From the NCBI GenBank assembly GCA_016928315.1, contig JAFGKZ010000203.1:1-45809 (forward strand): DNA of 45,809 nt, written 5' to 3'. Under the pieces are notes generated by a model, which did not search any database, was not told where the DNA came from, and saw only the letters and a list, made by a program, of their open reading frames with translations. Each line of letters opens with the position of its first letter. The first letter of the stretch is position 1. Both the position numbers and the translations under genes were made by a program. Origin of the DNA: Calditrichaceae bacterium. Lineage in GTDB: Bacteria > Calditrichota > Calditrichia > Calditrichales > Calditrichaceae. Shown in pieces: positions 25,900-45,809 of this stretch.

Positions 25900-25935
25900 C
25901 GATTATCTTTTATGCATTCCAGTTAAAAATCGAAG

Positions 25936-26412
25936 TCAGGGAATAACTACATCCAGTTCATCCAAAGCAAAAATTCGTTCGCAGTAGTAACACTTGACCT
26001 GTTTAGCGCTATCATCAATGGCAGTAAACAGAGTCCCAATATGAGCTTCTGAGTTGGTAATGCAGTTAGGATTTTTACATTCCAGTAAATTTTTGATTTC
26101 CTTTGGTGGATGCACAACCACCTTGCTATGAACTTTATAATCTTTTACCGCTTTCACGGTAACACCTGGAACCATAATCGATATATGTTGAATAATCTCG
26201 GGCGCCAGATAGTCCATCTGTAGTTTTATTAAATCCTTTTTCCCAAGTTTTTTACTTGTATAGTTGAGTCCCAAGGTAACAGGCACATCCTTCATTTCTT
26301 CATACTGGAAAATGATGTCCAGTATTTTAGGCCCCTGCCCTGCCGGGATATGGTCAATTACTATGCCCAGTTCAATTTTAGGAATTAGAAGCATTTCATT
26401 ATTATTACTCAT
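25936..26412 (-). CDS. pyrI: aspartate carbamoyltransferase regulatory subunit
   Basis: A protein of 158 residues with the two PyrI domains: an N-terminal allosteric nucleotide-binding domain and a C-terminal zinc domain with C122-x4-C127 and C151-x2-C154. The zinc domain holds the regulatory chain against PyrB. Its presence implies a holoenzyme regulated by nucleotides such as CTP and ATP. The ATG overlaps the pyrB stop (ATGA). The regulatory chain is a little longer than the common enterobacterial form but shows no defect. Confidence 0.95.
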   Translation of the reverse strand: MSNNNEMLLIPKIELGIVIDHIPAGQGPKILDIIFQYEEMKDVPVTLGLNYTSKKLGKKDLIKLQMDYLAPEIIQHISIMVPGVTVKAVKDYKVHSKVVVHPPKEIKNLLECKNPNCITNSEAHIGTLFTAIDDSAKQVKCYYCERIFALDELDVVIP

Positions 26413-27329: not shown

Positions 27330-27363
27330 AGTTTTCCTTTTAACGAATCCGGCATATCCTTAT

Positions 27364-28407: not shown

Positions 28408-29023
28408 AGGTCCCCTCGTAAAAATCATTGATTGTTTTTGCATTGGGATCCCCCTGGCGTTCCAGGTACCCAATGATATTAGGCAGTGAAACAATCGAAC
28501 TAAAAGGATAATCGCCTAATCCCAAATCCACTCCTTTTGCCCGCCGGTCAACCGTAACAATGATACCGGAAATTGTAACATCAAAGGTAGATTCAATCAT
28601 TTTAATAGCGTCTATCTTGGTACCGCCCGTTGTCAGCACATCATCTACCACGATGATACGATCGCCTTTTTGGGGCAGTTTACCGACAAACATACCGGCC
28701 TCGCCATGCGTCTTAGTCTCTTTTCTATTATAGCAGGTGTAAATTGGCTTTTTAAATATCTGCTGCCAGGCTATAGCGGTTGCAGAAACCAAAGAAATGC
28801 CTTTGTAGGGCGGACCGAATAAAATATCAACAAAACCAAAATCATTTTTTATTTTCCCGGCAAAAACCTGACCAACAAATTGAAGCGCTTCGCCGGAACA
28901 GATATCGCCAAGATTAATAAAAAATGGTGAGGTTCCCCCGGATTTAAGTGTAAAATTACCAAAACGCAAGGCTTTTTCTCTGATTAAAAATGCAATAAAA
29001 TCATCCTGACTGATTGTGATCAA
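28397..29023 (-). CDS. pyrE: orotate phosphoribosyltransferase
   Basis: A protein of 208 residues. The PRPP-binding loop VVDDVLTTGGTK (125-136) and the N-terminal orotate region FTLKSGGTSPFFINLG are clear. It joins orotate to PRPP to make OMP. The start is TTG at 29023, one base after the pyrC stop, with GGA 8 nt upstream; no in-frame ATG precedes the conserved part. The end overlaps the pyrF start, so pyrC, pyrE and pyrF are translated as a coupled block. Confidence 0.95.
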   Translation of the reverse strand: MITISQDDFIAFLIREKALRFGNFTLKSGGTSPFFINLGDICSGEALQFVGQVFAGKIKNDFGFVDILFGPPYKGISLVSATAIAWQQIFKKPIYTCYNRKETKTHGEAGMFVGKLPQKGDRIIVVDDVLTTGGTKIDAIKMIESTFDVTISGIIVTVDRRAKGVDLGLGDYPFSSIVSLPNIIGYLERQGDPNAKTINDFYEGTYEG

Positions 29024-29024
29024 T

Positions 29025-30293
29025 TTAGATTTCCATTCCTTTTATTTGGGTGAAAAATTTTTTATTATCATATTTAATAACACCGTTTACCATTGTTACG
29101 GCTGCCTGCCATTTAAAATTAAAATTTTTATACAGATTCCGGCCGGCCTTGGTCTGCATCTGTTCATTTTGAGTGCCGTCCGTATTTTTTATAAATACCA
29201 GATCGGCAAAATTCCCTGGTGTAATACCATCGCGACTTTTTATCGAGTAACATTCGGATGCACGGGTACAAATCAATTTATGAAACTGTTTCCAACTTAA
29301 CAATCCCTCATCGATAAAATGTAATAATTGCGGCATCAGCCATTCGATGGCCGCAATTCCCGAAGGCGGATTAGCGCTTTCCTTTTCTGATTTGGAATGC
29401 GGCGCATGATCGCTGCCGATAAAATCGATAATACCGGAAGCGACGGCTTCCCGTAACCGATTCTGATCGTCTTTGGTTCGGATTGGTGGATTGACCTGGA
29501 ATGCGGTGCCTTTTTTGATATAATCATCCTGCGTAAAATAAAGATAATGCGGACAGGTTTCTCCCCACACATCAAAACCTACTTTTTTCATTCGGGTGAT
29601 CCACTCGACTTCATCTGCGGTATTCATGTGGCAGATAACTACCCGTGGACGTTTATTTTCCGGAATATCTTTCAGGATTGATTCAATTTTTTGCAGAGCA
29701 CCGGTTATGGCCTTACGCGGACGATTCTCATGATGCAGCGGGCTGCGCTCCGGGCTCATATCAAATTCACTGTCATCTTCTGCGTGAATCGATACGATTG
29801 GGTATTTTATGAACAGCTTTTTCAGAATTTCGGGTGAATTTATTGACGGCAGGGCTGAGGATTTGGCCATATAAATTTTTGCGGATTTAATCTGATCATT
29901 CAACTCTTCGTTATTATGCGGCGTAGTGTGCAGCATTACTCCCCAGTTGATCAGGCTCTTTTTCCTGAATAATTTTTTCTTTTGCTGAACACGTTTTCCG
30001 GTGGAACAGGGTGGTTTGTTATTAGGCATATCGATGATTGTGGTAACGCCTCCGCGCAGGGCTGCCTTGGATCCGCTTACAATGCCCTCTTTGTATAGCT
30101 GACCCGGTTCGCGAAAGTGGACATGGGGATCAATGGCGCCGGGAACGATAAGATAATCTGCTGCATCAAATATTTCTTCATTTATTGATGAGATTGACGG
30201 AGAAAGTTCAGCAATTTTTCCATTTCTTATCAGAATTTCAGATTGAACAAATTCGCCGTCACTATTTAACCACTTTGCATTTTTAATTAACAT
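29025..30293 (-). CDS. pyrC: dihydroorotase
   Basis: A protein of 422 residues of the amidohydrolase superfamily. Metal ligands H57 and H59 lie in DPHVHFREP, the lysine of KIYMAKSS is at the carboxylated-lysine position, and later ligands lie in VSIHAEDD, VICHMN and the aspartate of IGSDHAPHS. The full set indicates an active enzyme rather than the inactive partner type found with some aspartate transcarbamoylases. It closes carbamoyl aspartate to dihydroorotate. It begins 33 nt after purF, with a weak ribosome-binding site, and marks the change from purine to pyrimidine genes in the run. Confidence 0.95.
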   Translation of the reverse strand: MLIKNAKWLNSDGEFVQSEILIRNGKIAELSPSISSINEEIFDAADYLIVPGAIDPHVHFREPGQLYKEGIVSGSKAALRGGVTTIIDMPNNKPPCSTGKRVQQKKKLFRKKSLINWGVMLHTTPHNNEELNDQIKSAKIYMAKSSALPSINSPEILKKLFIKYPIVSIHAEDDSEFDMSPERSPLHHENRPRKAITGALQKIESILKDIPENKRPRVVICHMNTADEVEWITRMKKVGFDVWGETCPHYLYFTQDDYIKKGTAFQVNPPIRTKDDQNRLREAVASGIIDFIGSDHAPHSKSEKESANPPSGIAAIEWLMPQLLHFIDEGLLSWKQFHKLICTRASECYSIKSRDGITPGNFADLVFIKNTDGTQNEQMQTKAGRNLYKNFNFKWQAAVTMVNGVIKYDNKKFFTQIKGMEI

Positions 30294-30326: not shown

Positions 30327-31760
30327 TCAGACCCGGTTCGATCCTAATTTTTCCTGTTCAATTTCATGCAGTAATTCTTTGGAAATACCGGTTGGATATT
30401 TTCCCGAAAAACAGGCATGGCAAATCGGTAAATCGCTGTACATTTCTTCTAAATCTTCCAAGCTCTGGTACACAACTGCATCTGCGCCAATATAACGGGC
30501 AATTTCATCAATTTTATAATTTGACGCCAGTATCTCTTTTTTAACCGACATATCAATCCCGTAAATACAGGGATGTTTAATGGGCGGCGAGGCCGATACA
30601 AAATATACTTCTTTGGCTCCGGCATCCCGCAGCAACTGAACGATGCGTTTTGATGTGGTGCCGCGGACAATAGAATCATCCACCACGGCAATTTTTTTAC
30701 CGACAACAATATCACGAATCGGATTCAGCTTCTGCTTAACCATTTTTTCCCGGGCCTGTTGATTCGGCGTAATAAAACTGCGTCCCATATGACTGTTCTT
30801 GGCTAATCCCCTGCGATATGGCACTTCCAGTCCTTCAGCCAAACCGGATGCAAAAAAGTACGCTGAATTGGGCACATCGATAACAATATCCGGCTGAAGG
30901 CCCGATTTTTTAAAGGTCACAGCTAATTGCTTGCCCATGCGCACCCGTTCACTGGCAACCAGCCGCTTATAAATTGTCGTATCTTCACGAGCAAAATAAA
31001 TATATTCAAAAACGCAAAAGGCTTGTTTTTTGGTTTTACCGATTCTGGTATGAACCTGATGCTTTTCATCGATAAAAACCATTTCACCGGGAGTGAGATC
31101 ATGCATCAATTCATATCCAAGATAATCAAAGGTCGTACTTTCTGAAGCAAAGGCATAAACGACGCCTTTGTCTGTAAATTTTCTCCCCATAACCAGCGGT
31201 CGGATTCCATACGGATCGGTGAAGGCCAGAAAACCATGGTTGGCAATAATCGTCATTGCCGAGTAAGCGCCTTTAACCTTTTTCTGAACTTCTTCAACGG
31301 AATCAAAAATATCATCTACACTTAAGTTTTTAAGATCTTTACTTTCCAGAACAGAGGCAAAAGTATATAAAATTAAAGCAACATCGTTGGATGTATCGAC
31401 CAGCCGATGATTTTCTTCGTACAGCGTTTTTCGTAATTCCTTAAAATTAACTACATTGCCATTATGCACCATGGCCAGACCAAACGGGTAATTGACTGCG
31501 ATGGGCTGCGCGTCTTCCGCATCGGTTGAACCCATGGTTGAGTAGCGAACATGTCCGATTCCACTGTAGCCGCTTAAAGCTTTTAAATCAACATCTTTAA
31601 ATACCGTGCTGACCTGCCCGTTACCTTTTTTCAATTTAAATGTACCTGAAAATGTAACGACGCCGGCGGCATCCTGGCCCCGATGCTGAAGGGTGGTCAT
31701 GCCATTGATTATTTCCGATGCCACATCCTTGTGACCAATAACGCCTATAATTCCACACAT
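30327..31760 (-). CDS. purF: amidophosphoribosyltransferase
   Basis: A protein of 477 residues. C2 directly after the initiator Met is the Ntn-type glutaminase nucleophile (MCGIIGVIGH), so no propeptide is present. The PRPP site is VVDDSIVRGTTS. Cysteines C259 (CVFEYIYFARED), C398 (HPCIYGIDM), C447 and C450 (CHACFSGKYP) occupy the four positions that hold a [4Fe-4S] cluster in the Bacillus-type enzyme. It makes phosphoribosylamine, the first step of purine synthesis. The ATG directly abuts the purN stop (TAG-ATG). Confidence 0.97.
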   Translation of the reverse strand: MCGIIGVIGHKDVASEIINGMTTLQHRGQDAAGVVTFSGTFKLKKGNGQVSTVFKDVDLKALSGYSGIGHVRYSTMGSTDAEDAQPIAVNYPFGLAMVHNGNVVNFKELRKTLYEENHRLVDTSNDVALILYTFASVLESKDLKNLSVDDIFDSVEEVQKKVKGAYSAMTIIANHGFLAFTDPYGIRPLVMGRKFTDKGVVYAFASESTTFDYLGYELMHDLTPGEMVFIDEKHQVHTRIGKTKKQAFCVFEYIYFAREDTTIYKRLVASERVRMGKQLAVTFKKSGLQPDIVIDVPNSAYFFASGLAEGLEVPYRRGLAKNSHMGRSFITPNQQAREKMVKQKLNPIRDIVVGKKIAVVDDSIVRGTTSKRIVQLLRDAGAKEVYFVSASPPIKHPCIYGIDMSVKKEILASNYKIDEIARYIGADAVVYQSLEDLEEMYSDLPICHACFSGKYPTGISKELLHEIEQEKLGSNRV

Positions 31761-32363
31761 CTATGGTTTACTCCCCTCTTCCAATTTATATTCACCGCTA
31801 AACACCTTGCGCAGCGCTTCACTGTAAAAACTGTGTTCCATTGCCAATCCAGCCTTTTCGACTTCTTCCAGTGTTTTACATCCCTGCAGATCAACAATCT
31901 GTTTACCAATAACCTTTCCTGTATCGACACCTTCATCCACAAAGTGAACGGTTATTTTTGTAAACGCTTTCTTATTTTCAAACGCCCATTCATAGGCGCC
32001 GATTCCCTGAAATTCTGATGTGTCTGCCGGATGAATATTAATAATTTTATTTCGATAAGCGGCAATAAATAACGGGCTTAATATGCGCATATATCCGGCC
32101 AGAACAATATAATCAAGATTATACTCTTTCAAGAATTCAACTACTTCCCGATCAAAGTCTTCGCGTTTTTTCCCTTTGGATTCAATACAGGCTGTCGGTA
32201 CGCCAAATTCTTCAGCAATCTTTAATCCGGCTGCCTCGGGCTTATTGGCGAAAACCAGTTCGACCCGGCATAAATCTTTCAGAATCCCCTCTTTGATATT
32301 ATTTAACAGGGCAACCATATTGCTGCCCCGGCCGGAAATGAATATGGCAATCTTTTTCTTCAC
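31761..32363 (-). CDS. purN: phosphoribosylglycinamide formyltransferase
   Basis: A protein of 200 residues. N-terminal FISGRGSNM binds substrate phosphate. The catalytic Asn-His-Asp set lies in NIHP and in the TVHFVDEGVDTG region. The usual 'NIHPSLLP.F.G' loop reads NIHPADTSEFQG here, a local variation beside the active site. It formylates GAR with 10-formyl-tetrahydrofolate. The start is GTG, overlapping the purD stop as GTGA, so translation is coupled. Confidence 0.94.
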   Translation of the reverse strand: MKKKIAIFISGRGSNMVALLNNIKEGILKDLCRVELVFANKPEAAGLKIAEEFGVPTACIESKGKKREDFDREVVEFLKEYNLDYIVLAGYMRILSPLFIAAYRNKIINIHPADTSEFQGIGAYEWAFENKKAFTKITVHFVDEGVDTGKVIGKQIVDLQGCKTLEEVEKAGLAMEHSFYSEALRKVFSGEYKLEEGSKP

Positions 32364-33607
32364 GATTGGATTCCCTTTTTGGCAATATCCTTACGATAAA
32401 ACATATGATCAAATGATACTTTTTTTACTTCAGCATAAGCCTTGTTGATAGCTGACTTTAGATCCGAACCTGTACCAACTATATTTATAACCCGTCCTCC
32501 GGACGTAATTATTTTTCCATTATCCATTCTTGTACCGGCATGGAAAGCAAATGAATCAGAAGATATTTTATCCAATCCTTTAATAACCTTATTTTTTTGG
32601 TACCCACCCGGGTAGCCTCCAGACGCTAATACTACATCAACGAAATAGCCATTATTAAATTCCATTTTAAAAGATGATAATGTTCCATTTAAGCAGGACA
32701 GAACTAGTTTCAGCAAGTCACTCTTCAATGAAGGTAAAATAACTTCCGTTTCCGGATCACCAAAGCGAACATTATATTCCAATAACATGGGACCAGCTTG
32801 GGTCATCATAATTCCGAAATAGATTACACCTTTGTAATTCAATCCATCCGCCTGAATCCCTCTTAATGTAGGATCAACTATTTTTGTCTTAATTTCGGCC
32901 AGTACCGATTCAGTCGCCAGGGGTACGGGACAATAGGCGCCCATACCGCCGGTATTGGGTCCCTTATCGCCATCGTATGCGGGTTTATGATCCTGAGATG
33001 TCAGTAATAATTTGATATCATGGCCGTCGGTAAATCCGATAATGGACAATTCCTGTCCGCTGATTTTCTGCTCAACAATATACTTGGCATCTTTGCCGTA
33101 TCGTTTTTTAATTTCTGCAAGAGCATCCATGGCTTCCTTAACCGATGAACAGACAAACACTCCCTTACCTGCAGCCAGACCATCGTATTTAATTACAATG
33201 TTACCATTATTCTGCTGAATGACCTTTTCAATATCATCACCATCTTCTTCCAGCCAGAAATCGGATGTAGCAACATCATACTTTTTCATGAATCGCTTTG
33301 CATGAATTTTAGAACCTTCCAGCCGGGCGGCTTCTTTATCCGGCCCGAATATTTTAATACCTTTATTCTGAAAATAATCCACAATGCCATTAGCAAGCGG
33401 ATCCTCCGGCCCGACAAAGATGAGCTCAATTTTATTTTCTTTACAGTACTGTTCAATGGCATTAAAATCATTTGGATTGATGTTAACATTATTTTTTGTG
33501 CCCCCGTTTCCCGGAATTACGAAAATATCCTCTTCAGGGATGCTTTGGGCGAATTTCCAGACGATAGCATGTTCGCGCCCGCCTGAACCGATGACTGCAA
33601 TTTTCAT
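32360..33607 (-). CDS. purD: phosphoribosylamine-glycine ligase
   Basis: A protein of 415 residues with the PurD order: an N-terminal Rossmann-like domain (MKIAVIGSGGREHAI), an ATP-grasp core (VIKYDGLAAGKGVFV, then NVRFGDPETE for metal binding) and a C-terminal domain. It joins glycine to phosphoribosylamine using ATP. AGG lies 8 nt before the ATG. It follows a 147-nt spacer packed with two palindromic repeats and overlaps purN by 4 nt. Confidence 0.96.
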   Translation of the reverse strand: MKIAVIGSGGREHAIVWKFAQSIPEEDIFVIPGNGGTKNNVNINPNDFNAIEQYCKENKIELIFVGPEDPLANGIVDYFQNKGIKIFGPDKEAARLEGSKIHAKRFMKKYDVATSDFWLEEDGDDIEKVIQQNNGNIVIKYDGLAAGKGVFVCSSVKEAMDALAEIKKRYGKDAKYIVEQKISGQELSIIGFTDGHDIKLLLTSQDHKPAYDGDKGPNTGGMGAYCPVPLATESVLAEIKTKIVDPTLRGIQADGLNYKGVIYFGIMMTQAGPMLLEYNVRFGDPETEVILPSLKSDLLKLVLSCLNGTLSSFKMEFNNGYFVDVVLASGGYPGGYQKNKVIKGLDKISSDSFAFHAGTRMDNGKIITSGGRVINIVGTGSDLKSAINKAYAEVKKVSFDHMFYRKDIAKKGIQS

Positions 33608-33703: not shown

Positions 33704-33755
33704 ACCCTCCCCTGGCCCCTCCCTGCTTGCAGGGAGGGGAATAAAAGGGGTGGGT
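33704..33755. repeat. C-rich/G-rich palindromic spacer repeat, copy 2
   Basis: ACCCTCCCCTGGCCCCTCCC leads into an inner palindrome CCCCTCCCTG-CTTG-CAGGGAGGGG and ends AAGGGGTGGGTT. Its outer end touches the purB stop codon. In the minus-strand transcript it would fold into a very stable hairpin immediately after purB. Confidence 0.7.
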
Positions 33756-35113
33756 TAATTAATTATTGTTTTTGCTTCTTTGATCACCCGCTCCGTTATA
33801 TTCTTTGCCTCACCCATGTAATCCATTACACTTAACGACTTTAACTCGTTTTTCACATGATTTTCAATATCCAGTTGATCAATAAATTTACCCAGATCGT
33901 CTTTAGATATATCCTGCCCGCGGGTCAATTCCTTAAGCAAATTGTAGGGATTTTCCAGATCTTCGCGCCGGAGAATCGTTTGAATCGGCTCGGCCAGCAA
34001 CTCCGGATGTGCGTTTAATTCATGTTCACAGCGCACTTTATTGATGCTCAGTTTTTTCAATCCTTTTATGGTTTCCTGAATAGCCAGATAGCTGTGTGCC
34101 AGCGCTACACCTACATTTCGTGTTACGGTACTATCTGATAAATCTCGCTGCAAACGGGAATTACCAAGTTTGTCAATCAGACCATTTAGTAATGCAGTGG
34201 ATACCTGCATATTGCCTTCACTGTTTTCAAAATTAATCGGATTTACTTTATGTGGCATGGTGGATGAACCCACGGCCCCTTTATCCGCGCTGATGGTCAG
34301 ATAACCAAGTGTTAAATACAACCAAATATCGCGATCCATATCAAGAATGATGTTATTAATCCGCTTAGTAATTGAAAAATATTCTGCCCAGGTATCATGA
34401 TCTTCAATTTGAGTGGTTACTGGATTATTTTTTAAACCATATTTCTGCATGAATTTTTCGGAAAAGGCAATCCAGTTATATTTTGGAAAGGCTGCTTTAA
34501 GGGCTGAATAATTTCCTGTTGCGCCGTTTAATTTACCTAAAAAGGTAAAGGATTTCAGTTTTTCGAATTGACGTAACAATCGGATTAGAAATACTGCCAT
34601 TTCCTTTCCACCGGTGGAAGGCGAAGCCATTTGTCCGTGAGTTCGTGCAGGAAATGGGACATCTTTCCAGTTTGCAGCATGATCTACAAGATTTTTTAAA
34701 ACAGTTTCAATTTGAGGAAGCTGTTCTTTTTCCAGATAATCTTTAAATAAAAAGGTATAAGCCAGATTGTTGACATCCTCGGAAGTCAATCCAAAGTGAA
34801 TCATATTGGGGTGGCTCAATCCCAGTTTTTCCTGAAGGAAAATCTCACAGGATTTAACATCATGATTGGTCGTCTTTTCAATTTCCTTGATACGCTGATA
34901 ATCTATATCTGAAAAATTATTCTGATAATATTGAATCTTTTCAATCTCATTTCCGGCGAATTTCTTAAATAAACCGCTTTCATCCAGGGCTAGCAGAAAT
35001 CGCAACTCCACCAATACCCGGGAGCGCATGAGGGCAAATTCGGAAAAGTAATTTCCCAAATGCGAAAGACGATCAGCATAACGTCCGTCAAGCGGTGAGA
35101 TTTCTTTAAACAT
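33755..35113 (-). CDS. purB: adenylosuccinate lyase
   Basis: A protein of 452 residues of the fumarase/argininosuccinase fold. The signature loop is SSTMPHKVNPINFENSEGN; THGQMASPS and the N-terminal PLDGRYADR mark the PurB branch with the Escherichia-type layout. It acts twice: it cleaves SAICAR to AICAR and adenylosuccinate to AMP. The ATG at 35113 lies inside the end of purCE (overlap ATGTTTAA, 8 nt) with AGAGGTG upstream; a longer frame start at 35143 is less likely. Confidence 0.95.
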   Translation of the reverse strand: MFKEISPLDGRYADRLSHLGNYFSEFALMRSRVLVELRFLLALDESGLFKKFAGNEIEKIQYYQNNFSDIDYQRIKEIEKTTNHDVKSCEIFLQEKLGLSHPNMIHFGLTSEDVNNLAYTFLFKDYLEKEQLPQIETVLKNLVDHAANWKDVPFPARTHGQMASPSTGGKEMAVFLIRLLRQFEKLKSFTFLGKLNGATGNYSALKAAFPKYNWIAFSEKFMQKYGLKNNPVTTQIEDHDTWAEYFSITKRINNIILDMDRDIWLYLTLGYLTISADKGAVGSSTMPHKVNPINFENSEGNMQVSTALLNGLIDKLGNSRLQRDLSDSTVTRNVGVALAHSYLAIQETIKGLKKLSINKVRCEHELNAHPELLAEPIQTILRREDLENPYNLLKELTRGQDISKDDLGKFIDQLDIENHVKNELKSLSVMDYMGEAKNITERVIKEAKTIIN

Positions 35114-36497
35114 TTTCACCTCTGATGGTTCTATCCGCTTCAATTAAATCGGCTTTCATTTTCTGAATTTCTTTCATGAAGATATTTTTCAACCGTGACA
35201 AATTAAGACTGCGCAGGGCAATCTGGGCGGCATTCTTTGGATCAACCACCGTAGCAGCCGGTGTATTGGACGGCATCATCAGAGATGAATTAATATTCAC
35301 CATCATATCATCCTTATCACTGAACGGCGGACAACTGAAAACCGGAATTGTCAAATTGGCTGCCAGCGCCCCACCGAGGCCATTTGAGCGGCCGGCCACA
35401 GCAATCACCGCGCCAGGCTCAACGGAATTATTGTAGTCTTCAATAACTTTTGGAATTTCCTCACCATTTTTATGCGCCGATACAACACGCATATCCACTT
35501 TGACATCGTACTTCTCTATGATGTCTTTCATTTTATTGCAGTGCTCGATATCCGATGGCGAACCCATAATAACAGCAATAAATCCATCTTTAATGATTTT
35601 GTGTTTAACCAGATTCGAATGAACACGAGCCAGCACATTATCTTCAATTTCCGGTAAAGATTCACCGGTAATCATACCATAGATATCCCGGTAACGCCTG
35701 GTGGTCTCCTGAACCACATCATCAGGCAAAGAATCCGGATAGACATCATTCTTTTTATTTTTAAGCAAGTAACTGCGAACATATTCTTTATCCAACTGTT
35801 CTGCATTAACCGGATCATTTTCATAATTTTCTTTTGACCAGAAGCGGGATGAATCCGGCGTATGGATTTCATCAATTAGTACCAGCTTATTATCAATCAG
35901 GCCAAATTCATATTTTGTATCTACAAGGATCAATCCCCGTTCTTCAAGCATATTGCTGCCGCGTTCAAACAGTGCCAACGAGACTTTTTCCATAGCTTTA
36001 TAAATATTGGCAGCCACCCAGCCTTCATCCACCAGTTCCTTTGGAGTGATTTCGCGGTCGCTGTCCTCTTTGGTTGTCGGCGTAACGATCGGCTTGGTAA
36101 AAGCCTGATTTTTTTTCATCCCTTCCGGAATGGTTACGCCCGAAACTTTGCGTTTACCCTTTTCATATCCGCGCCAGGCTGAGCCTGTCAGATAGCCACG
36201 AACAACCATTTCAACCCGTATAGGGCTGGCTTCTTTAACCAGTGAAATATTGGGATCAATCAGTTTAATGAAATGGTTGTCAATAATATCCCTGGTATTT
36301 TCAAACCAGAATGCCGCCAATTGATTGAGCACAGCGCCCTTGCCGGGAACAGCCGTTTTAAGCACAAAATCAAAACTGGATATGCGATCGGTGGCAACAA
36401 TCATCCGGGTTTGATCATCTATGCGAAAACTCTCCCGCACTTTACCTGAATGAATTTTCTTTAACTGAGGTGTTTTAAAATTGACCAAACAATTCAT
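35106..36497 (-). CDS. purC-purE: SAICAR synthase fused to class II AIR carboxylase (PAICS-like)
   Basis: A protein of 463 residues. Residues 1-303 are SAICAR synthase of the yeast Ade1/bacterial long type (HSGKVRESF, ATDRISSFDF, VRGYLTGSAWRGY, VDTKYEFGL). Residues 305-463 are a PurE domain with MGSPSD, SAHK, AGRSNGLGG, SCPP and a C-terminal LIEADRTIRG. AGRSN and SCPP are characteristic of class II PurE (animals, Treponema), which carboxylates AIR directly with CO2, instead of the AGAGGAAHLPG of class I. No purK is found in the cluster, which fits. Human PAICS has the same domain order but a different SAICAR-synthase subtype, so the fusion looks independent. AAAGGAG lies 6 nt before the ATG. 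Confidence 0.92.
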   Translation of the reverse strand: MNCLVNFKTPQLKKIHSGKVRESFRIDDQTRMIVATDRISSFDFVLKTAVPGKGAVLNQLAAFWFENTRDIIDNHFIKLIDPNISLVKEASPIRVEMVVRGYLTGSAWRGYEKGKRKVSGVTIPEGMKKNQAFTKPIVTPTTKEDSDREITPKELVDEGWVAANIYKAMEKVSLALFERGSNMLEERGLILVDTKYEFGLIDNKLVLIDEIHTPDSSRFWSKENYENDPVNAEQLDKEYVRSYLLKNKKNDVYPDSLPDDVVQETTRRYRDIYGMITGESLPEIEDNVLARVHSNLVKHKIIKDGFIAVIMGSPSDIEHCNKMKDIIEKYDVKVDMRVVSAHKNGEEIPKVIEDYNNSVEPGAVIAVAGRSNGLGGALAANLTIPVFSCPPFSDKDDMMVNINSSLMMPSNTPAATVVDPKNAAQIALRSLNLSRLKNIFMKEIQKMKADLIEADRTIRGENV

Positions 36498-36701: not shown

Positions 36702-38330
36702 TTAATGTTTAAAATGCCTCAATCCTGTAAACATCATCGCAATGCCCAATTCATCGCATTTGGCAATGACTGATTTATCACGGATGCTTCCGCCCGGCTG
36801 AAAAATCTTTTTAATGCCTGCCGCACCGGCCAGCTCAATATTATCCGGGAATGGAAAAAAAGCATCGGATACCAGAATTGCTTCGCCCATTTCCTGCTGA
36901 ATGTATGCATTCACTTCTGACTCAGAACCTGTAAATTCCAGCTTTAAATTTTCTATGGATCGGCTGATTGCCAGTTGCGTGGAATTCACCCTGTTCGGTT
37001 GTCCGCAGCCCATACCCAGTAACTGATTATCACCATTCTTTAATTTCCGTACAATGGCAATGGAGTTGGACTTAAGCTGACGGCAGGCAATTAAACCAAA
37101 ATCCAGTAGATTGTCATCGACCTTCATCTGAGCTTGTGTGACTGTTTCAGCTTTATCCTTCAATTTATCATCTGGATTCTGGACAAGAATAGAATTATAT
37201 AAAAATTTTACATCTTTATCTGTTGTCAGCCGGGCAGGATCAAATTCAACTACCCGTAGATTTTTATTCTGGAATAAGTAGTCCAAAGTGTTCTGATCAA
37301 ATTCCGGCGCGATAATGACTTCAACAAACTTGCGCAGCATTTTGTTTTCATTATCCAGATCAAGAAATTTAGCTGTTTCCAGTTCCAGTTTACGATTAAA
37401 AGCAATTACAGAACCAAAAGCCGAAACCGGATCCCCTGCCCAGGCCTGTTCAAATACTTTTCGCTGATCTGCACCTTCAGATAGTCCGCAGGGATTATTA
37501 TGCTTAATGACAGCACAACCGGATTTCTTTAAATCACGCACAGAATCGATGGCGCTATACATATCCACCAGATTATTGAAGGATAATTCTTTACCATGAA
37601 GAACATTCATATCATACAGCGAATCGGAAGTACCATTCTGCTTAAGAAAGAAAGCGCTTTGATGGGAATTTTCACCGTAGCGTAATTCTATGGCCTGGCT
37701 ATATGACATTCTTTGCGAAAGCACACCTGCTGTTTCATCCATGGTTGTGGCAATCATCGCATCATAATCCGCTGTGGCATTGTATGCTGCCCGCATTAAT
37801 TCAAATCGGGTATGATAGGATAAACTGCCGTCATTAGCCTTAAGTTCTTCAACAATGTCCGGATAGGTTCTGGGATTGGTCACAATGGCAACGTATTTGA
37901 AATTTTTGGCCGCCGCCCGTACCATGGTCGGTCCGCCAATATCGATATTCTCAATCAGTGTATCAAAATCAGCGCCCTGTTTTTTTACTCGTTCAAATGG
38001 ATACAGATTGCAGATGACCATGTCAATCGGTTCAATATTCAGTGAAGCTGCTTCTTTGGCATCCTTTTCACGATCAAATAACAAGGCCGACTCAATCTGG
38101 AATGAGATGGTTTTCATCCGTCCGCCAAAAGCCTCGGGATTACCCGTTACCTTGGAAATCTCGGTTACCGGCAAACCGGCTGATTCCAGAACTTTTTTTG
38201 TGCCGCCAGTCGAAATAATCTCACATCCAATCTGATGCAAAGTTTTAGCCAGAGATTCAATTCCGGATTTATCCGACACGCTTATCAAGACTCGTTTAAT
38301 CTTAATTTTATCAATATCTGATGATTGCAT
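36702..38330 (-). CDS. purH: bifunctional AICAR formyltransferase/IMP cyclohydrolase
   Basis: A protein of 542 residues. The N-terminal MGS-like cyclohydrolase domain (ISVSDKSGIESLA, STGGTKKVLESAG, about 1-195) is followed by the AICAR formyltransferase domain (LRYGENSHQ, IKHNNPCG, DPVSAFGSVIAFN). It performs the last two steps to IMP. The usual 'GR(V/M)KTLHPKIHGG' segment reads GGRMKTISFQIESALLFDRE, a subtype variation in the cyclohydrolase half. The ATG has only a weak ribosome-binding site. It is flanked by spacers of 142 nt (from purQ) and 204 nt (to purCE), so it may have its own control signals. Confidence 0.95.
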   Translation of the reverse strand: MQSSDIDKIKIKRVLISVSDKSGIESLAKTLHQIGCEIISTGGTKKVLESAGLPVTEISKVTGNPEAFGGRMKTISFQIESALLFDREKDAKEAASLNIEPIDMVICNLYPFERVKKQGADFDTLIENIDIGGPTMVRAAAKNFKYVAIVTNPRTYPDIVEELKANDGSLSYHTRFELMRAAYNATADYDAMIATTMDETAGVLSQRMSYSQAIELRYGENSHQSAFFLKQNGTSDSLYDMNVLHGKELSFNNLVDMYSAIDSVRDLKKSGCAVIKHNNPCGLSEGADQRKVFEQAWAGDPVSAFGSVIAFNRKLELETAKFLDLDNENKMLRKFVEVIIAPEFDQNTLDYLFQNKNLRVVEFDPARLTTDKDVKFLYNSILVQNPDDKLKDKAETVTQAQMKVDDNLLDFGLIACRQLKSNSIAIVRKLKNGDNQLLGMGCGQPNRVNSTQLAISRSIENLKLEFTGSESEVNAYIQQEMGEAILVSDAFFPFPDNIELAGAAGIKKIFQPGGSIRDKSVIAKCDELGIAMMFTGLRHFKH

Positions 38331-38472: not shown

Positions 38473-39297
38473 TTAACTATTTTCCTTAATATGATTTACT
38501 ATATTTTTAAAGATTTTCAATCCGTCACCTTCATCACTCATATTGGGATTTTGACGTTTCTTTTTGCCCCAATTGGGATGATTATATACTGAAAGAAACG
38601 CTTCCGGATGCGGCATCAAACCAAAGACCTGACCCGATGGATCACACAAACCGGCACAATTCAATTCCGAACCATTTGGATTCTGCGGGTATTCAGTAGT
38701 TGGTTGACCATTTTTGCCAGCGTATGACATACAATTTAAATTTTTATCAATGATGATCTGCCGGGTAGCTTCATCTTTAAAAATGAGCTTTCCCTCACCG
38801 TGACGCACCGGCATATCGAGCGTAATAATATCCTTTATAAAGGGTGTTTTGGAATCCGGATTAACACAGCAGGTCACCCAGCGATCTTCAAACTTACCGG
38901 AGCTGTTATGGGTGATGGTGGCTTCCTGTTCAAAATTGCCGCTTGCATTAGGCAGAAATCCCATTTTCACCAATGCCTGGAATCCGTTGCAGACACCAAT
39001 CATGTATTTGCCTTCATTCAGAAACTTTTTAAGTTCATCTAAAAACAATTTTCCTGATGCCATTCGTTTAAATCTGAATTTATTACCCAGCACCTTGGCC
39101 GAACCAAGATCATCACCAAATGAAAATCCGCCGGGAAAATTGAGAATATCATAATCGTGAATGCTGGTCCGCTCATTGAAAACTTCACTTAGGTGGACAA
39201 TATCCGCTTTGGCGCCGGCCAGCCGGTTTGCCGCAGCCATTTCCTCTTCACAATTAATTCCGAATCCGGTTACTACCAGTCCTTTTACGTCTTTCAT
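38473..39297 (-). CDS. purQ: phosphoribosylformylglycinamidine synthase, glutaminase subunit
   Basis: A protein of 274 residues of class I glutamine amidotransferase type. Nucleophile C103 lies in MIGVCNGFQALV, the catalytic His-Glu in GLMPHPEAF, and FPGGFSFGDD is the oxyanion-loop region. It supplies ammonia to PurL. The frame extends to a TTG at 39348, but that part lies partly in the repeat element and is not family-like. The ATG at 39297 begins the typical KGLVVTGFGINCEEE start and is chosen. The stop codon falls in a short TTCGTGGTTAAC sequence of dispersed-repeat character at the start of the 142-nt purQ-purH spacer. PurL and PurQ together match the length of the single-chain large enzyme. 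Confidence 0.94.
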   Translation of the reverse strand: MKDVKGLVVTGFGINCEEEMAAANRLAGAKADIVHLSEVFNERTSIHDYDILNFPGGFSFGDDLGSAKVLGNKFRFKRMASGKLFLDELKKFLNEGKYMIGVCNGFQALVKMGFLPNASGNFEQEATITHNSSGKFEDRWVTCCVNPDSKTPFIKDIITLDMPVRHGEGKLIFKDEATRQIIIDKNLNCMSYAGKNGQPTTEYPQNPNGSELNCAGLCDPSGQVFGLMPHPEAFLSVYNHPNWGKKKRQNPNMSDEGDGLKIFKNIVNHIKENS

Positions 39298-39342
39298 ATA
39301 TTTCTCATGCGTTTTCGAAAAATTTACCTTTAATTCATTGCA

Positions 39343-39412
39343 ACCCAACCCTTAATCCCCTCCGTTGGATGGGAAACTGAATTCCCCTCTTGGTAAAGGC
39401 TAGGGGTGGGTA
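39343..39412. repeat. C-rich/G-rich palindromic spacer repeat, copy 4
   Basis: ACCCAACCCTTAATCCCCTC pairs imperfectly with AAAGGCTAGGGGTGGGT. It occupies most of the purL-purQ spacer and supplies the spurious N-terminal extension of the purQ frame. Confidence 0.6.
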
Positions 39413-39426
39413 TCAATTTTTTTCTG

Positions 39427-42426
39427 TTAGAACACAAGTCCGCTCCGCCAGGCATTTAGAAGCACATCATTGTCCAGATCAATCAACACTTTGCCAGCCT
39501 TACTTATTTGTACTTTATATGATTCATTGACTTTACCAATTAGTTCAGCATCATTTCCAAATAATTGTTCGAATTTATCTTTATCATCCGGGTTTACCGA
39601 AACGATGAAACGTGAATGGGATTCAGAAAATAAATTGGCGTTGATCGATAGTCCGTTATTCGGCAATTCAATCGATACACCCAATTCGCTGCCAAATGCT
39701 GACTCAGCAAGAGCCACCGCCAAACCGCCATCGGATAAATCATGGGCAGAAACCAACAGGCTTCTTGTATTTGCTTCCATCATCTTATAATAAATACGCT
39801 TTGCATCTTCTTTGCGAACCACCGGCACATTAGCGCCAATTTCATTAAATAATTTATAGAAATCCGATCCGCCCAGTTCATCATATGTCTTTCCAATCAG
39901 ATAGATGAGATCGCCAGTTTGCTTAAATTCGGCGGTTAGGGTTTTTCGTATATCTTTTATTTTAGCAACCATCGAGTATAAAATTGTCGGCGGTACGGAT
40001 ATTTTAACACCCTCTTTGATGAAGTCATTCTTCATGCTGTCTTTGCCCGATGTCATCGGGATATTAAAGAAGGTGGACATATCAAAGAGCGCTTCATTCA
40101 TGCGCACCAGTTGAGCCAATTTATATTTGCCGTCGGGATTAGATTTGGGATTGTATGCTGAATCCGGCACACAGAAATTATCATTCACCGACCAGAAGTT
40201 ATTATCTGCATCATCCGGATCGGGCAGTTTACCTCCAACCGCAATGATACTCCGAACTGCTTCATCAAATGAACCGGCCGACATTTGGTAAGCATCAATA
40301 TCGCCGAATTTTGGCAGAATACCATTGGACACTGCAATACCGGCATAGGAATCAAATCCCAGCCGCATAATGGCGGCATCCTGCGGCGCAAATCCGTCCA
40401 CACCCATTAGCGGTTTGATCACTGATTTCCCTTTAACCTCATGGTCATAACGGCGGATAATAGATTCACGGGAGCAGATATTCAGACTGCCCAGCAATTT
40501 TAACAGAATATCATTATAATCCAGATTATTTTTTAGCTTGGGTTCGCGAACGGCAGGTTTTTTCCATTCCGCTTCCATATATTTCTTTGGTACACCATCA
40601 TGCAGAAATTCAAGATCGAGATAAGCGATACTTTTATCTTCCCAGCGGACATCCAGAAAGCCACTATTAGTAAACTGACCAATATCTGTCAGCTCAACTT
40701 CAAAATCAGCCGCCATTTTAAATAAATTTTTAATTAGATCAGGTTTGACTACAAAGGACATGCGCTCCTGTGATTCGGATACAAAAATCTCCCAGGCTTT
40801 CAATCCTGAATATTTCAGGGGTACTTTATCAAGCTGAATCTTCGCCCCACCGGAAATAGTAGCCAGCTCGCCAATGGATGAGGACAATCCCCCGGCGCCG
40901 TTATCCGTAGAACATTTTATCAATCCGAGCTTCACAGCCTGTTCCATAAAATCGGACATATTCTTTTGTGTAATGGGCGATCCAATCTGCACAGCAGAGC
41001 GTGGCGAATGTTCATCAATTTCCAGCGAAGAGAAAGTTGCGCCATGGATGCCGTCTTTACCGACACGGCCACCAGCCATTACAATCCGGTCACCGGCAGC
41101 GATGGGTTTTTCCCATGAATTCACGCCGGCATACTGATTTTGCATCACTGCGCCGGTTCCGCAGAATACCAGCGGCTTGCCGCGAAAACGATCGTCAAAA
41201 ATAACCGAACCATTGACCGTAGGAATTCCGGATTTATTTCCGCCATCCTCGATGCCTTTAACCACGCCGGTCATTATTTGTCTTGGATGCAGCTGACCCG
41301 GTAATAATTTTCCCTCATAATAAGGCGATCCGAAACAGAGCACATTGGTATTAAACAACAATTTGCCGCCGCCGATGCCCGTGCCAAGCGGATCGCGGTT
41401 TACGCCAACGATACCGGTCAAAGCGCCGCCATAGGGATCCAGCGCGGAAGGGCTGTTATGCGTTTCCACTTTCCAGATAAACACGCGGTCGTCATCAATA
41501 CGCACCACCCCGGCATTGTCTGAGAATATTTTAAGCAGCCAGTTGTTGCCCTTTTCTTTTAATCGATCCTGAATAATTTTAGTCGATTTATAAATATAGG
41601 TTTTAAATAGTGAGTCAATCGTTTTTTCCTCACCCGTTTCCATATCCTTGTAGGATATAATGGCATTAAACTCTTTATGTTTGCAGTGTTCCGACCAGGT
41701 CTGAGCCAGAATTTCCATCTCACAATCCGTGGGCAGTTCGGGCAAACCGGCCTCTTTACGTCCCGCAATGGTGGATTCATTTTTAAAGTAAGCCTGAATA
41801 GCAGCCATCTCTTTTAAATCCAAAGCCAGCAGCAGTTCTTTGGATAATTTTTCCAGCCGGGCTTCATCGACAAAAATATCGATGGTTTTGATGGTTGTAT
41901 CGGATTCGATATGTACAGTAGGTATATATTTAATCTTACCATCAAATGTGCCGTACTCAAAATGATTGATCAGCGGATTGCCGAGTAACTCTTCACCCAA
42001 TTGGGCCAATTGTTTATCACTTAGTTTATTTTCGATGTAATAAATATCCTGGGTAAAAATCCATTGTGCACTAAAATCAAAGGGGATATTCAATAAATCG
42101 CACAGCGCTTTTTGCGCAGAAACACCTTCATCATCAGTAACGCCGGGCAGTTTGGAAATTAGGATATAGGATTGATAGGCAGAATCGTTAAACAACATGT
42201 TGATATAAGCATCATGAATAATGGGATCCCGAAGTGATTCATTAGAAAATTGAGAAATCTGATCGGAAGATAAATCGTAAAGAACAGAAAAGATCTTACC
42301 GGATTTTACCTTGCCGGTATTCAATTGAAGATATTTCTGTGCGCTCTCACAGACACGTTGCCCTGCCACATCAACGACATTCGGTTTCAACAAAAGCTGA
42401 ATGTGATTAATGTTTGTGGACTGCAA
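39427..42426 (-). CDS. purL: phosphoribosylformylglycinamidine synthase, PurS-PurL fusion
   Basis: A protein of 999 residues, longer than the small PurL (about 740) and shorter than the single-chain form (about 1290). Residues 1-175 show two PurS-like halves (HIQLLLKPNVVDVAGQRV ... KLPGVTDDEGVSAQKAL). A linker and two AIR-synthase-type halves follow: TWSEHCKHKEFNA, FKVETHNSPSA-like VETHNSPSALDPYGGA, DNGAGGLSSSIGE and SAHDLSDGGLAVALAES. It lacks the C-terminal glutaminase, supplied by the next gene, purQ. It converts FGAR to FGAM with ATP. The start is TTG at 42426 with AAGGA 7 nt upstream; the next in-frame Met would remove a PurS strand. The 164-nt spacer before it contains a repeat. Confidence 0.94.
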   Translation of the reverse strand: MQSTNINHIQLLLKPNVVDVAGQRVCESAQKYLQLNTGKVKSGKIFSVLYDLSSDQISQFSNESLRDPIIHDAYINMLFNDSAYQSYILISKLPGVTDDEGVSAQKALCDLLNIPFDFSAQWIFTQDIYYIENKLSDKQLAQLGEELLGNPLINHFEYGTFDGKIKYIPTVHIESDTTIKTIDIFVDEARLEKLSKELLLALDLKEMAAIQAYFKNESTIAGRKEAGLPELPTDCEMEILAQTWSEHCKHKEFNAIISYKDMETGEEKTIDSLFKTYIYKSTKIIQDRLKEKGNNWLLKIFSDNAGVVRIDDDRVFIWKVETHNSPSALDPYGGALTGIVGVNRDPLGTGIGGGKLLFNTNVLCFGSPYYEGKLLPGQLHPRQIMTGVVKGIEDGGNKSGIPTVNGSVIFDDRFRGKPLVFCGTGAVMQNQYAGVNSWEKPIAAGDRIVMAGGRVGKDGIHGATFSSLEIDEHSPRSAVQIGSPITQKNMSDFMEQAVKLGLIKCSTDNGAGGLSSSIGELATISGGAKIQLDKVPLKYSGLKAWEIFVSESQERMSFVVKPDLIKNLFKMAADFEVELTDIGQFTNSGFLDVRWEDKSIAYLDLEFLHDGVPKKYMEAEWKKPAVREPKLKNNLDYNDILLKLLGSLNICSRESIIRRYDHEVKGKSVIKPLMGVDGFAPQDAAIMRLGFDSYAGIAVSNGILPKFGDIDAYQMSAGSFDEAVRSIIAVGGKLPDPDDADNNFWSVNDNFCVPDSAYNPKSNPDGKYKLAQLVRMNEALFDMSTFFNIPMTSGKDSMKNDFIKEGVKISVPPTILYSMVAKIKDIRKTLTAEFKQTGDLIYLIGKTYDELGGSDFYKLFNEIGANVPVVRKEDAKRIYYKMMEANTRSLLVSAHDLSDGGLAVALAESAFGSELGVSIELPNNGLSINANLFSESHSRFIVSVNPDDKDKFEQLFGNDAELIGKVNESYKVQISKAGKVLIDLDNDVLLNAWRSGLVF

Positions 42427-42590: not shown

Positions 42591-43676
42591 CTAATATTGA
42601 TAAAACAACCTCTGCGGTTGCATACCTTTTGATTCTATCGTTATCGTAAATTTATCTATTATGTGGCCGCACTCACAGGCCTGGTAATCGTTTTGTTTGA
42701 TTGTTGCAAGGGCGGCGTCCAATTGATCCCGTTCTAAAATAATGAGCATACCATTACCCATATTCCATAATTGATAGGCCTGCTCTTCCGATACCTGTCC
42801 TAGCTCCTGTATTTTTTTCATAACCGGCAGCGGTTCAAAAATGTTATCGAGTACAGCGCCAACCTGATTGATTTTTAATATCCGTGACAGATTATCAGCC
42901 AATCCTCCGCCTGTCACGTGAACGATGCCGTTTATTTTTATATTTTGTTTGACCAGCTTGGTAATCAGCGGTGAATAAATCAATGAATGAATCAGTAGGA
43001 TTTCCCCCCAACTGGTATTATTATCAAACGCCGATTTGTGCCATTCCGGCCCGAAGGTGTTTTCCATTATCTTTCGGAGCAGTGAAAAGCCGTTGCTGCG
43101 GAATCCACGACTTTTTAAGGCGATTACCACATCACCGGATTTTATATTTTTACCATCGATCAGCTCTTTACCTTCAGGAAGTATACCGATGCCGGTTGAG
43201 CACCAGTTAAAATGCATCCGCTCACCGTAACCGCCGATGCGTGATCCCAGCTCGGCAATTTCTCCTCCGGTTACCGTGATACTGGCAAATTTGGCCGCTT
43301 CATACAATCCTTCCATAAGTTGATCGACGATCTCAGCATCCAGAAAGTCCACATCGAGGATATTGGACAGATTGACTGTTTCGATGCCATTCGCAGCAAG
43401 ATCATCGGCTACCATAGCAACCAGATCAAATCCAATGGTGTTATAAATGCCGGTGCGCTCAGCCAGCTCAATCTTTGTACCGATACCATCGGAGGACAGA
43501 CCTATCTTTACGCCGTTAAAATCCATCAGACTGGAAAATCCGCCATCGGCTGACATTAATGGATTACCTGTACCAGGCTCGCGGTGAGTGAAAGATTTTT
43601 TAGCCCAGTTGTAGGCAATTCTCGAACAATGGTTGCCAAGATCGATATTAATTCCGCTGTTTTTTTTGATGGTCAT
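42591..43676 (-). CDS. purM: phosphoribosylformylglycinamidine cyclo-ligase
   Basis: A protein of 361 residues. The AIR synthase signatures are present: GLSSDGIGTKIELA for the ATP/phosphate loop, DLVAMVADDLAANG, VTGGEIAELG, and the C-terminal VHVTGGGLADNL. It closes FGAM to AIR. The ATG at 43676 has only a weak ribosome-binding site (AAAAAGT). The gene is separated from purA by 260 nt of tandem repeats, so it may be expressed from its own promoter or depend on read-through. Confidence 0.95.
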   Translation of the reverse strand: MTIKKNSGINIDLGNHCSRIAYNWAKKSFTHREPGTGNPLMSADGGFSSLMDFNGVKIGLSSDGIGTKIELAERTGIYNTIGFDLVAMVADDLAANGIETVNLSNILDVDFLDAEIVDQLMEGLYEAAKFASITVTGGEIAELGSRIGGYGERMHFNWCSTGIGILPEGKELIDGKNIKSGDVVIALKSRGFRSNGFSLLRKIMENTFGPEWHKSAFDNNTSWGEILLIHSLIYSPLITKLVKQNIKINGIVHVTGGGLADNLSRILKINQVGAVLDNIFEPLPVMKKIQELGQVSEEQAYQLWNMGNGMLIILERDQLDAALATIKQNDYQACECGHIIDKFTITIESKGMQPQRLFYQY

Positions 43677-43936: not shown

Positions 43937-45157
43937 CTAAAACAACGCTTCCTTAAAAATTATATTATTCCTGTCCGGTCCGGTGGAAATCATGCCAATC
44001 GGCGTTTCCAGATACTCTTCAATAAAATCAATATATTTAACACAATTGGCCGGTAATTTGGATATGTCGGTAATGCCTTCAACTTCCTCTTCCCAGCCTG
44101 GGAATTCCTTATAGACCGGCTGCCCTTTACTGTCATAATCCACGGCAGCCAAAATCTTTTCAAATCCCGAAAGACAGCTCAATTTACTAAGGGATATATA
44201 ATTAAATCCGTTTATCATGAATGATCTTTTCAGCAATTTTAAATCCAGCCAGCCGCAGCGACGTGGTCGGCCCGTTGTAGCGCCGAATTCATTTCCATTC
44301 TTTCTTAATCGTTCACCAGTTGCATCATTAAGTTCTGTAGGAAAAGGTCCTTCACCCACCCGGGTCGTATACGCTTTAACAATTCCGATACGTTTATCAA
44401 ACTCCATAAAAACACCCGAGCCCGTATAGGCCCCGCCAATACTTGTCGATGATGATGTTACGAAAGGATAGGTGCCATGATCGATATCCAGAAAAGTCCC
44501 CTGGGCGCCCTCGTACAGAATATTGGCGCCTTTTTTCAGAAAACCATAAATCACTTCAATGGAATCCTGAATATATGGTTTTAAATATTTGCCGGCTTTT
44601 TCCATCTCCGCAACGGCTTCATCCACATCAATGAACGGTTCATCATAAACCTGATCGCAGATACTTTTATAATTGCCGGCATGTTCGCAAAAACGATCAA
44701 TAAAACTGCCGTCCAGAATATTTTCCGCGCGGATACCTGTCCGGTGTATTTTATCTCCGTAAGCCGGACCAATACCGCGACCGGTGGTGCCGATTTTTTT
44801 ATTTAATACCTTATCCAAATATTTATGTACCGGTGTGACAATATGCGCCTGGCTGGATACAATCAATTTATCCGGCGATACCTTAACGCCTTTATCCTGA
44901 AGATATTTCACTTCTTCGCTAAAAATGATCGGATCAACCACGCAGCCGTTGCCGATCACATTGGTTGCCTTGCCCGAGACAATACCGCCGGGAATAATAT
45001 GAAGCACGTATTTCTTATCCCCGATAATGACCGTATGTCCGGCATTGGCTCCACCCTGAAAACGAACCACCAGATCCATTTTACCGGATAATAAATCTAC
45101 AATCTTGCCCTTACCTTCATCACCCCATTGAGCGCCTAATACAATATATTTTGCCAT
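43937..45157 (-). CDS. purA: adenylosuccinate synthetase
   Basis: A protein of 406 residues. The P-loop and catalytic D13 lie in QWGDEGKGK, H41 in NAGHTV; YEGAQGTFLDIDHGTYPFVTSS, TTRVGEGPFPTEL and GATTGRPRRCGWLDL are all intact. It joins IMP and aspartate with GTP on the way to AMP. It is about 20 residues shorter than common bacterial forms but has no visible loss of an active-site segment. The ATG is one base after the guaB stop, with GGGG 8 nt upstream, so the two IMP-using genes are coupled. Confidence 0.96.
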   Translation of the reverse strand: MAKYIVLGAQWGDEGKGKIVDLLSGKMDLVVRFQGGANAGHTVIIGDKKYVLHIIPGGIVSGKATNVIGNGCVVDPIIFSEEVKYLQDKGVKVSPDKLIVSSQAHIVTPVHKYLDKVLNKKIGTTGRGIGPAYGDKIHRTGIRAENILDGSFIDRFCEHAGNYKSICDQVYDEPFIDVDEAVAEMEKAGKYLKPYIQDSIEVIYGFLKKGANILYEGAQGTFLDIDHGTYPFVTSSSTSIGGAYTGSGVFMEFDKRIGIVKAYTTRVGEGPFPTELNDATGERLRKNGNEFGATTGRPRRCGWLDLKLLKRSFMINGFNYISLSKLSCLSGFEKILAAVDYDSKGQPVYKEFPGWEEEVEGITDISKLPANCVKYIDFIEEYLETPIGMISTGPDRNNIIFKEALF

Positions 45158-45158
45158 G

Positions 45159-45809
45159 CTATTCGCCCCAGTTTATTGCTGTATAATTTGGATCATTGCC
45201 GGGCAAATAAATATCATGCACCTGGCCTTCCCTGATCGATAATGCCGAGACGACTTCCAGCTCGGCTTTTTTATGCAATTCTTTTATGTTGGCCGCCCCA
45301 ACCGATGACATGGAAGCTTTAATTTTTGACAGAGCTTCCGGCAGGTTATCGCGCAATTTTCCGGCATATTGAACAAATCCCTCAACGCCTTCCACAAAAT
45401 TAATCTGATGATAACGAAGCGCCTTCCATTCCCGTGCGCGTGCGGAGCCCTCACCCCAGTATGGTTTCATCACCTGGTTGCGCAGTGTAACCTTTTCAGT
45501 TGGTGATTCATCCATGCGGGCAAAGTAGCGTCCCATCATGGCATAATCCGCGCCGAGCGCCAGCGCAATGACGATATCTTTCGAATTGACGATACCACCA
45601 TCAGCAATGAGTGGAATATATTTACCGGTTTTCTTTAAATAAGCGTCACGCGCTTCCGCTACTTTTATAATTGATGTTGCCAGTCCGCGGCCGGTGCCTT
45701 TTTGTTCCTGCGTGATGCAGATCGAACCGCCGCCCATACCTACCTTGACTGCGCGGGCGCCATTTTCAACCAGGTAATTAAATCCTTCCCCCGTGATAAT
45801 ATTGCCGCC
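45159..45809 (-). CDS. guaB: IMP dehydrogenase, C-terminal part
   Basis: The gene runs off the right edge; 216 codons are present. Reading in from base 45809 gives GGNIITGEGFNYLVENGARA, then VKVGMGGGSICITQEQKGTG with the catalytic Cys of the SIC motif. A later IPLIADGGI binds the IMP phosphate, and EGSARAREWKALRY supplies the mobile flap with Arg-Tyr. The loop form CITQEQKGTGRG, instead of CTTR..GVG, resembles the branch that includes the Tritrichomonas enzyme. It oxidises IMP to XMP with NAD+. Whether CBS domains are present cannot be seen. The first ATG inside the window (45737) is internal, not a start. Confidence 0.93.
   Translation of the reverse strand, partial: GGNIITGEGFNYLVENGARAVKVGMGGGSICITQEQKGTGRGLATSIIKVAEARDAYLKKTGKYIPLIADGGIVNSKDIVIALALGADYAMMGRYFARMDESPTEKVTLRNQVMKPYWGEGSARAREWKALRYHQINFVEGVEGFVQYAGKLRDNLPEALSKIKASMSSVGAANIKELHKKAELEVVSALSIREGQVHDIYLPGNDPNYTAINWGE

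Follow-up and report, generated by a model that had tools for sequence, protein, structure and literature searches.

A prokaryotic PurC-PurE fusion in the Calditrichaceae with the domain order of animal PAICS and a probable origin of its own

Introduction

Yeast Ade2 resembles the protein reported here in being a fusion that bears a PurE domain, but there a class I PurE is joined to PurK. The parts of the present system are known, namely animal PAICS and the class II PurE of Treponema denticola and some archaea, both of which are treated in PMC3261824 and PMC9376930. PMC3261824 calls fused PurCE common in eukaryotes, PMC4177761 places AIR carboxylase almost exclusively in eukaryotes, and PMC9376930 has the type II PurE of animals carboxylating AIR with CO2. 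Our searches of an open-access library turned up no account of PurC and PurE fused in a bacterium.

Here we describe such a fusion, purCE, from a 45,809-nt stretch of DNA (the window) of a Calditrichaceae bacterium. From its sequence we read it, with a probability of roughly 0.8, as a bifunctional AIR carboxylase/SAICAR synthetase that was fused independently of PAICS and probably spread together with a pur gene cluster.

The purCE gene

The purCE gene (35106..36497, minus strand) is a single open reading frame with an ATG start and no internal stops, encoding 463 aa. Pfam recognizes two domains in it, each above its cut-off: residues 14-249 match SAICAR_synt with 232 bits (cut-off 20) and residues 307-435 match AIRC with 115.6 bits (cut-off 30), so the preliminary description of this interval as a PurC-PurE fusion is borne out. 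The N-terminal SAICAR synthetase half (residues 1-284; 35646..36497, minus strand) was assigned to the Ade1 type by a PDB search, structure alignment and trees. A linker of about residues 285-303 (35589..35645, minus strand) leads into the C-terminal class II PurE half (residues 302-463; 35109..35594, minus strand), and in most fused proteins the two halves are offset by 301-303 residues. The AGRSN, SCPP and C-terminal ADRTIR motifs previously listed for the PurE half are all present: AGRSNGLG spans residues 368-375, SCPP 388-391, and ADRTIR lies at the C-terminus; SAHK occupies residues 340-343. Among 35 aligned fused proteins, SAHK and AGRSN are invariant, as are K195, E197, D209, D215, R218, K237 and R241 of PurC.

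Of the NCBIfam models, PRK13961 is passed by the PurC half (262.8 bits, cut-off 251), which scores 354 against PRK12607 (cut-off 371). purCE is the only AIRC-family match in the source genome, a draft of 3.69 Mb in 291 contigs that is 87% complete. The 45,809-nt window contains no regulatory RNA matched by Rfam at gathering thresholds.

The PurE half and the absence of purK

Searched against solved structures, the PurE half scores 94 bits with Bombyx PAICS, 88 with human PAICS, 74.5 with T. denticola PurE and 58 with M. jannaschii PurE, and 33 bits with the class I PurE of E. coli. An AF2 monomer model of purCE, built from an alignment (A4) of the 35 fused proteins, has a mean pLDDT of 91.9 and a pTM of 0.87; its residues 304-460 align with T. 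denticola PurE (PDB 3rg8) at Z 21.7 and rmsd 2.1 over 156 residues, and class I PurE entries reach Z 19.3 at most. In the PurE tree, class I separates from class II at 100/100 and the PurE half groups with the known class II enzymes. By alignment, 17 of the 18 human AIR-carboxylase active-site residues listed in PMC9376930 are identical in purCE, the sole difference being human T275, which corresponds to P314. Together with T. denticola PurE as the nearest PurE fold, this agrees with the class II assignment of the preliminary description. T. denticola PurE, a bacterial class II enzyme, shares SAHK, AGRSN and CPP with purCE, but it stands alone, is about 35% identical, and falls outside the fused clade, on a branch that is long.

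The same description held that a class II enzyme would explain why purK is missing. The missing gene itself was confirmed: no purK exceeds the cut-off in any of 15 Calditrichaceae genomes, among them the source genome and a single-contig genome given as 100% complete, in a search that, applied to 14 named control genomes, detects an above-cut-off purK in 11. Beyond the family, we scanned a collection covering 84,980 species for a single peptide pattern, confirmed at least 571 relatives of the PurE, and analysed the best 80 of these. Of the 73 scanned loci outside Calditrichota in this best 80 of at least 571, purK was tested in 50 (44 of 44 fused, 6 of 29 unfused), and 43 of the 44 fused genomes outside Calditrichaceae have no purK over the cut-off. 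The single exception, L104, has a class I purE adjoining its purK. Among the six unfused genomes tested, G107 carries a class I purE beside a cut purK on a 3.3-kb contig; separately, 395-aa purK-like matches in G107 and G109 were identified as PurT and set aside.

The explanation offered for the absence is not supported as evidence: the class includes 25 genomes that do not have the fusion, and 24 of them equally lack purK. We therefore rejected its absence as proof of class II chemistry. Stand-alone PurE is carried by 23 of these 25 genomes, with the class I motif in the loci read. Elsewhere in the domain, purK matches at E<=1e-15 occur in 6 of 20 genomes and pass the cut-off in 3. Since relatives without the fusion lack it too, purK was probably already absent when the fusion arrived, and its absence is uninformative about chemistry. 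As a separate observation, six genomes of a sister family (L048-L053) have no purK, a class I PurE was read in 5 of their 6 loci, and they carry a divergent PurC frame of 353-372 aa and, in 5 of the 6, a different long form of PurL.

One might then ask whether the PurE half works instead as an N5-CAIR mutase, acting on N5-CAIR formed non-enzymatically from AIR and bicarbonate, so that purK would be unneeded. Such a route may operate in these relatives, as 22 of the 23 PurE-bearing non-fusion genomes of the class lack purK and the stand-alone PurE read there carries the class I motif, and PMC3261824 discusses non-enzymatic N5-CAIR and a class I-like PurE without PurK in archaea. We nevertheless consider this unlikely for purCE. 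Its PurE half has the class II SAHK and AGRSN in place of the class I SAHR and AAHL(P/A)G of the sister genomes (AAHLPG in the corresponding class I motif), it fails TIGR01162, the class I/N5-CAIR mutase model (103 bits, cut-off 149.6), which a sister-family PurE passes with 174.7 bits, and the animal type II enzyme uses CO2 on AIR according to PMC9376930. Class II carboxylation thus remains our preferred reading of the PurE half.

Fused and split forms across phyla

The fusion occurs in 51 of the best 80 of at least 571 PurE relatives, whose record names span more than a dozen phyla; phyla were taken from record titles or tree origins, mostly of binned genomes, and all counts by phylum refer to this best 80. 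They comprise Cloacimonadota (10), Bacteroidota (9), Calditrichota (7) and Neomarinimicrobiota (6), two fusions each in Spirochaetota, Chlorobiota, Pseudomonadota, the Ozemobacter group, Bdellovibrionota and Wirthbacteria, and one each in Verrucomicrobiota (L104), Armatimonadota, Chlamydiota, Ignavibacteriota, Woesearchaeota, another archaeon and another bacterium. The other 29 of the best 80 of at least 571 have a separate class II-type PurE, with an Ade1-type PurC on the same strand in 28 of the 29 loci (the locus without PurC, L145, was left out of the PurC trees). In 24 of these 29 unfused loci the PurC gene lies at most 106 nt from purE, often overlapping it or one base away. Because the unfused genes mostly adjoin, the fusion looks like the joined form of a pre-existing purC-purE pair.

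The Wirthbacteria fusions fall inside the split group in the PurC tree, and the starred branches of the PurC and PurE trees force at least two changes between the fused and split states, whether by gain or by loss. An AU test does not reject a single clade of all prokaryotic fusions (p-AU 0.209), which leaves more than one fusion event among prokaryotes unproven.

L104, an Opitutales MAG, holds this fusion and a class I purE-purK in one genome. Its fusion groups with the Calditrichota rows and its locus lacks neighbouring pur genes, so the contig may have been misbinned or the gene recently transferred; every count includes L104.

The PurC half and the comparison with PAICS

The PurC half belongs with a different branch of SAICAR synthetases from that of PAICS. 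A PDB search gives 177 bits with yeast Ade1, 153.7 with M. abscessus PurC and 35.7 with Bombyx PAICS, and human PAICS is absent from the 13 sequences found at E<=10. Model residues 3-282 align with yeast Ade1 (2cnq) at VIA Z 34.3 and rmsd 1.8 over 274 residues; yeast Ade1 and the M. abscessus PurC, both of the long type, have this same fold across about 274 residues (34-36% identity) but have no PurE fused to them. In two PurC trees every fused or split PurC row groups with yeast and Mycobacterium (99 and 100/99), and animal PAICS is placed with short bacterial and archaeal PurC. For the AU test, three long rows (L163, the f2 PurC and the f1 second PurC) were removed from the PurC tree and the remainder thinned, which together took the set from 94 rows to 56; a constrained clade of the main fused group and animal PAICS was rejected (p-AU 0.004). 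The preliminary description had called the PurC half Ade1-type rather than animal and had taken the shared domain order as a hint of convergence, and separate phylogenies of the two halves, run as it had proposed, uphold both points, with PurC alongside the Ade1 type and outside the animal PAICS lineage and PurE alongside class II.

Animal PAICS (human and Bombyx) is thus alike in having PurC and then PurE in one chain, a class II PurE with 17 of the 18 active-site residues listed for human AIR carboxylase, and the same two predicted reactions, and it differs in the type of its PurC. It also differs in the predicted arrangement of the halves. Both Bombyx and human PAICS align with the two halves of the purCE model in sequence order, but at an rmsd of about 21 A, with Foldseek TM values of 0.36-0.47 on query length; given this poor whole-chain superposition, the PurC and PurE halves are placed unlike those of PAICS in the monomer prediction.

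Could bacterial fusion and animal PAICS nonetheless descend from one fusion event, with the PurC half exchanged later? The identical domain order would be accounted for in this way, and in the PurE tree animal PurE together with L163 is the nearest outgroup, at weak support (84/73), of a 48-row fused clade (100/98) that leaves animal PurE outside. But the PurC halves fall on either side of a deep split between types (100/99) and their joint clade is rejected, the two parts also occur as pairs of separate genes, and the halves are predicted to sit differently; on this evidence we find a shared event decidedly improbable. Since the PurC half groups with yeast Ade1 and a clade with animal PAICS is rejected, we take the likeness of purCE to PAICS to be convergent as judged from these trees. 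L163, from an uncultured archaeon, is a divergent fusion on long branches in both trees: its PurE half joins the PurE of animal PAICS (98/89), and its PurC half remains with the Ade1 type.

A second, short PurC

A second PurC, of the short type, is present in 10 of the 14 other Calditrichaceae genomes (L064-L067, L074-L078 and L080), and the source genome has one in two pieces (L006 and L007), with motifs kept in both. Where its flanks were read (L006, L007 and L077), it lies outside the pur cluster, with htrA-like and psd/pssA-like ORFs on either side, names that we assigned by reading the ORFs. The Lys of its K-x-E-F-G motif, equivalent to human Lys191, is lost in 7 of 11 genomes and kept in the source genome, which points to a short PurC that is degenerating or repurposed. 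The fused PurC keeps the equivalent Lys in 35 of 35 aligned fused proteins, and this difference suggests that the pathway is carried by the fused PurC. Because the second PurC of the source genome keeps its motifs, the fused PurC may not be the sole SAICAR synthetase there.

The presence of this second gene, in 10 of 14 relatives and in two pieces in the source genome, is what could lend credit to a purCE with one catalytically dead half serving as a scaffold, the second PurC supplying SAICAR synthetase. We think this very improbable, given that catalytic residues of both halves are invariant in 35 fused proteins, that the second PurC is without its key Lys in 7 of 11 genomes, and that, where flanks were read, it is found away from the pur cluster, with htrA on one side and psd-pssA on the other. 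A purCE with two active halves is the reading we retain.

Spread within the Calditrichaceae

Among 40 Calditrichota genomes, the fused type is confined to Calditrichaceae, where 11 of 15 genomes have it, including the source. Of the 14 other family members, 10 carry the fused PurE, and these are all the PurE-bearing ones of the 14; their open frames measure 465-502 aa, except for one of 339 aa that is ended by a contig edge, and 2 of these 10 genomes also contain a weaker AIRC-family match in a frame of 274-275 aa. The family is thus not uniform in having the fusion, since no PurE was found in 4 of the 14 (one of them 93% complete). PurL was likewise not found in 3 of these 4, and missing contigs or loss of the pathway may lie behind these absences. 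The draft state of the source genome (291 contigs) could raise the suspicion of a misassembly or frameshift, but the same single-frame fusion in 10 of 14 family relatives and in 44 genomes outside the family refutes such an artefact and makes it next to impossible.

The pur cluster and its neighbours

The purCE gene stands in a purine run on the minus strand. Downstream of it, and overlapping its stop by 8 nt with its ATG start, is purB (33755..35113), encoding adenylosuccinate lyase, which acts in the step after SAICAR; then follow purD (32360..33607), purN (31761..32363) and purF (30327..31760). On the other side are purH (36702..38330), purQ (38473..39348), purL in a 999-aa form (39427..42426), purM (42591..43676; 233.3 bits against TIGR00878, cut-off 236.35), purA (43937..45157) and part of an IMP dehydrogenase gene, truncated where the window stops (45159..45809). 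The assignments of purH, purQ, purD, purN and purF rest on profile matches and conserved gene order.

The order purL-purQ-purH-purCE-purB-purD-purN-purF recurs in 10 Calditrichaceae loci, as far as contigs reach, and in most of 38 further loci (L099-L135 and L137, of which L111 is the Calditrichota member), with purB, purH or purF sometimes missing. The PurL of the window is 66-75% identical to PurL of the family in near-full matches, 45-64% identical to PurL of clusters in other phyla, and 30-43% identical to PurL in the rest of its own class, where the frames have 741-810 aa (near full) or, in 5 of 6 sister-family genomes, 1207-1269 aa. None of the pur genes of the window has a match at E<=1e-12 in the six PurE loci of the sister family. 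Because the gene order is shared across phyla and PurL is closer to that of other phyla, these comparisons fit a replacement of the native purine genes of Calditrichaceae by a transferred pur block.

A pyrimidine block adjoins the cluster (24213-30293, minus strand), with a DHODB Fe-S subunit, DHO dehydrogenase, pyrI, pyrB, pyrF and an amidohydrolase. Within it, 27364-28494 (minus strand) encodes PyrF (OMP decarboxylase, residues 36-250) in frame with a response-regulator receiver domain (residues 263-371). In 13 other Calditrichaceae genomes the PyrF match ends before the receiver part, and the source genome has, on a different contig, a separate receiver that is 72% identical; the PyrF-receiver ORF is either a species-level fusion or an assembly artefact.

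Discussion

How might purCE work? We infer both activities from the enzyme families to which its halves belong. The C-terminal class II PurE would carboxylate C4 of AIR directly with CO2, giving CAIR with no need of ATP or PurK, and Ser340 and His342 would be the counterparts of human Ser301 and His303. The N-terminal Ade1-type PurC would then convert CAIR, with ATP and aspartate, to SAICAR, which PurB, the product of the overlapping next gene, would take on. It is also plausible that the PurE domains form an octameric core bearing the PurC domains and that the hand-over of CAIR is eased. The fusion probably arose by the joining of an adjacent purC and class II purE pair, independently of animal PAICS, and Calditrichaceae probably received purCE with the whole pur cluster through transfer between phyla.

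A broader proposal is one that we put forward tentatively, at somewhat less than even odds: that a prokaryotic AIR carboxylase/SAICAR synthetase separate from PAICS, with an arrangement of its halves unlike that of PAICS, was formed from a purC-purE pair, possibly repeatedly, and moves between phyla within a complete, collinear cluster for IMP synthesis that replaced the native genes in Calditrichaceae.

If the class II reading is true, AIR would be carboxylated with CO2 in many poorly known bacterial phyla, frequently by an enzyme fused to the one that acts next. A missing purK is no marker of this chemistry, as most sampled genomes of the class keep a stand-alone PurE without purK. On the same condition, the protein would be a natural replicate of PAICS built from other parts, and selection on the fusion itself, for channelling or stoichiometry, would therefore become testable. 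Evolution apparently arrived at such a PAICS-like fusion more than once.
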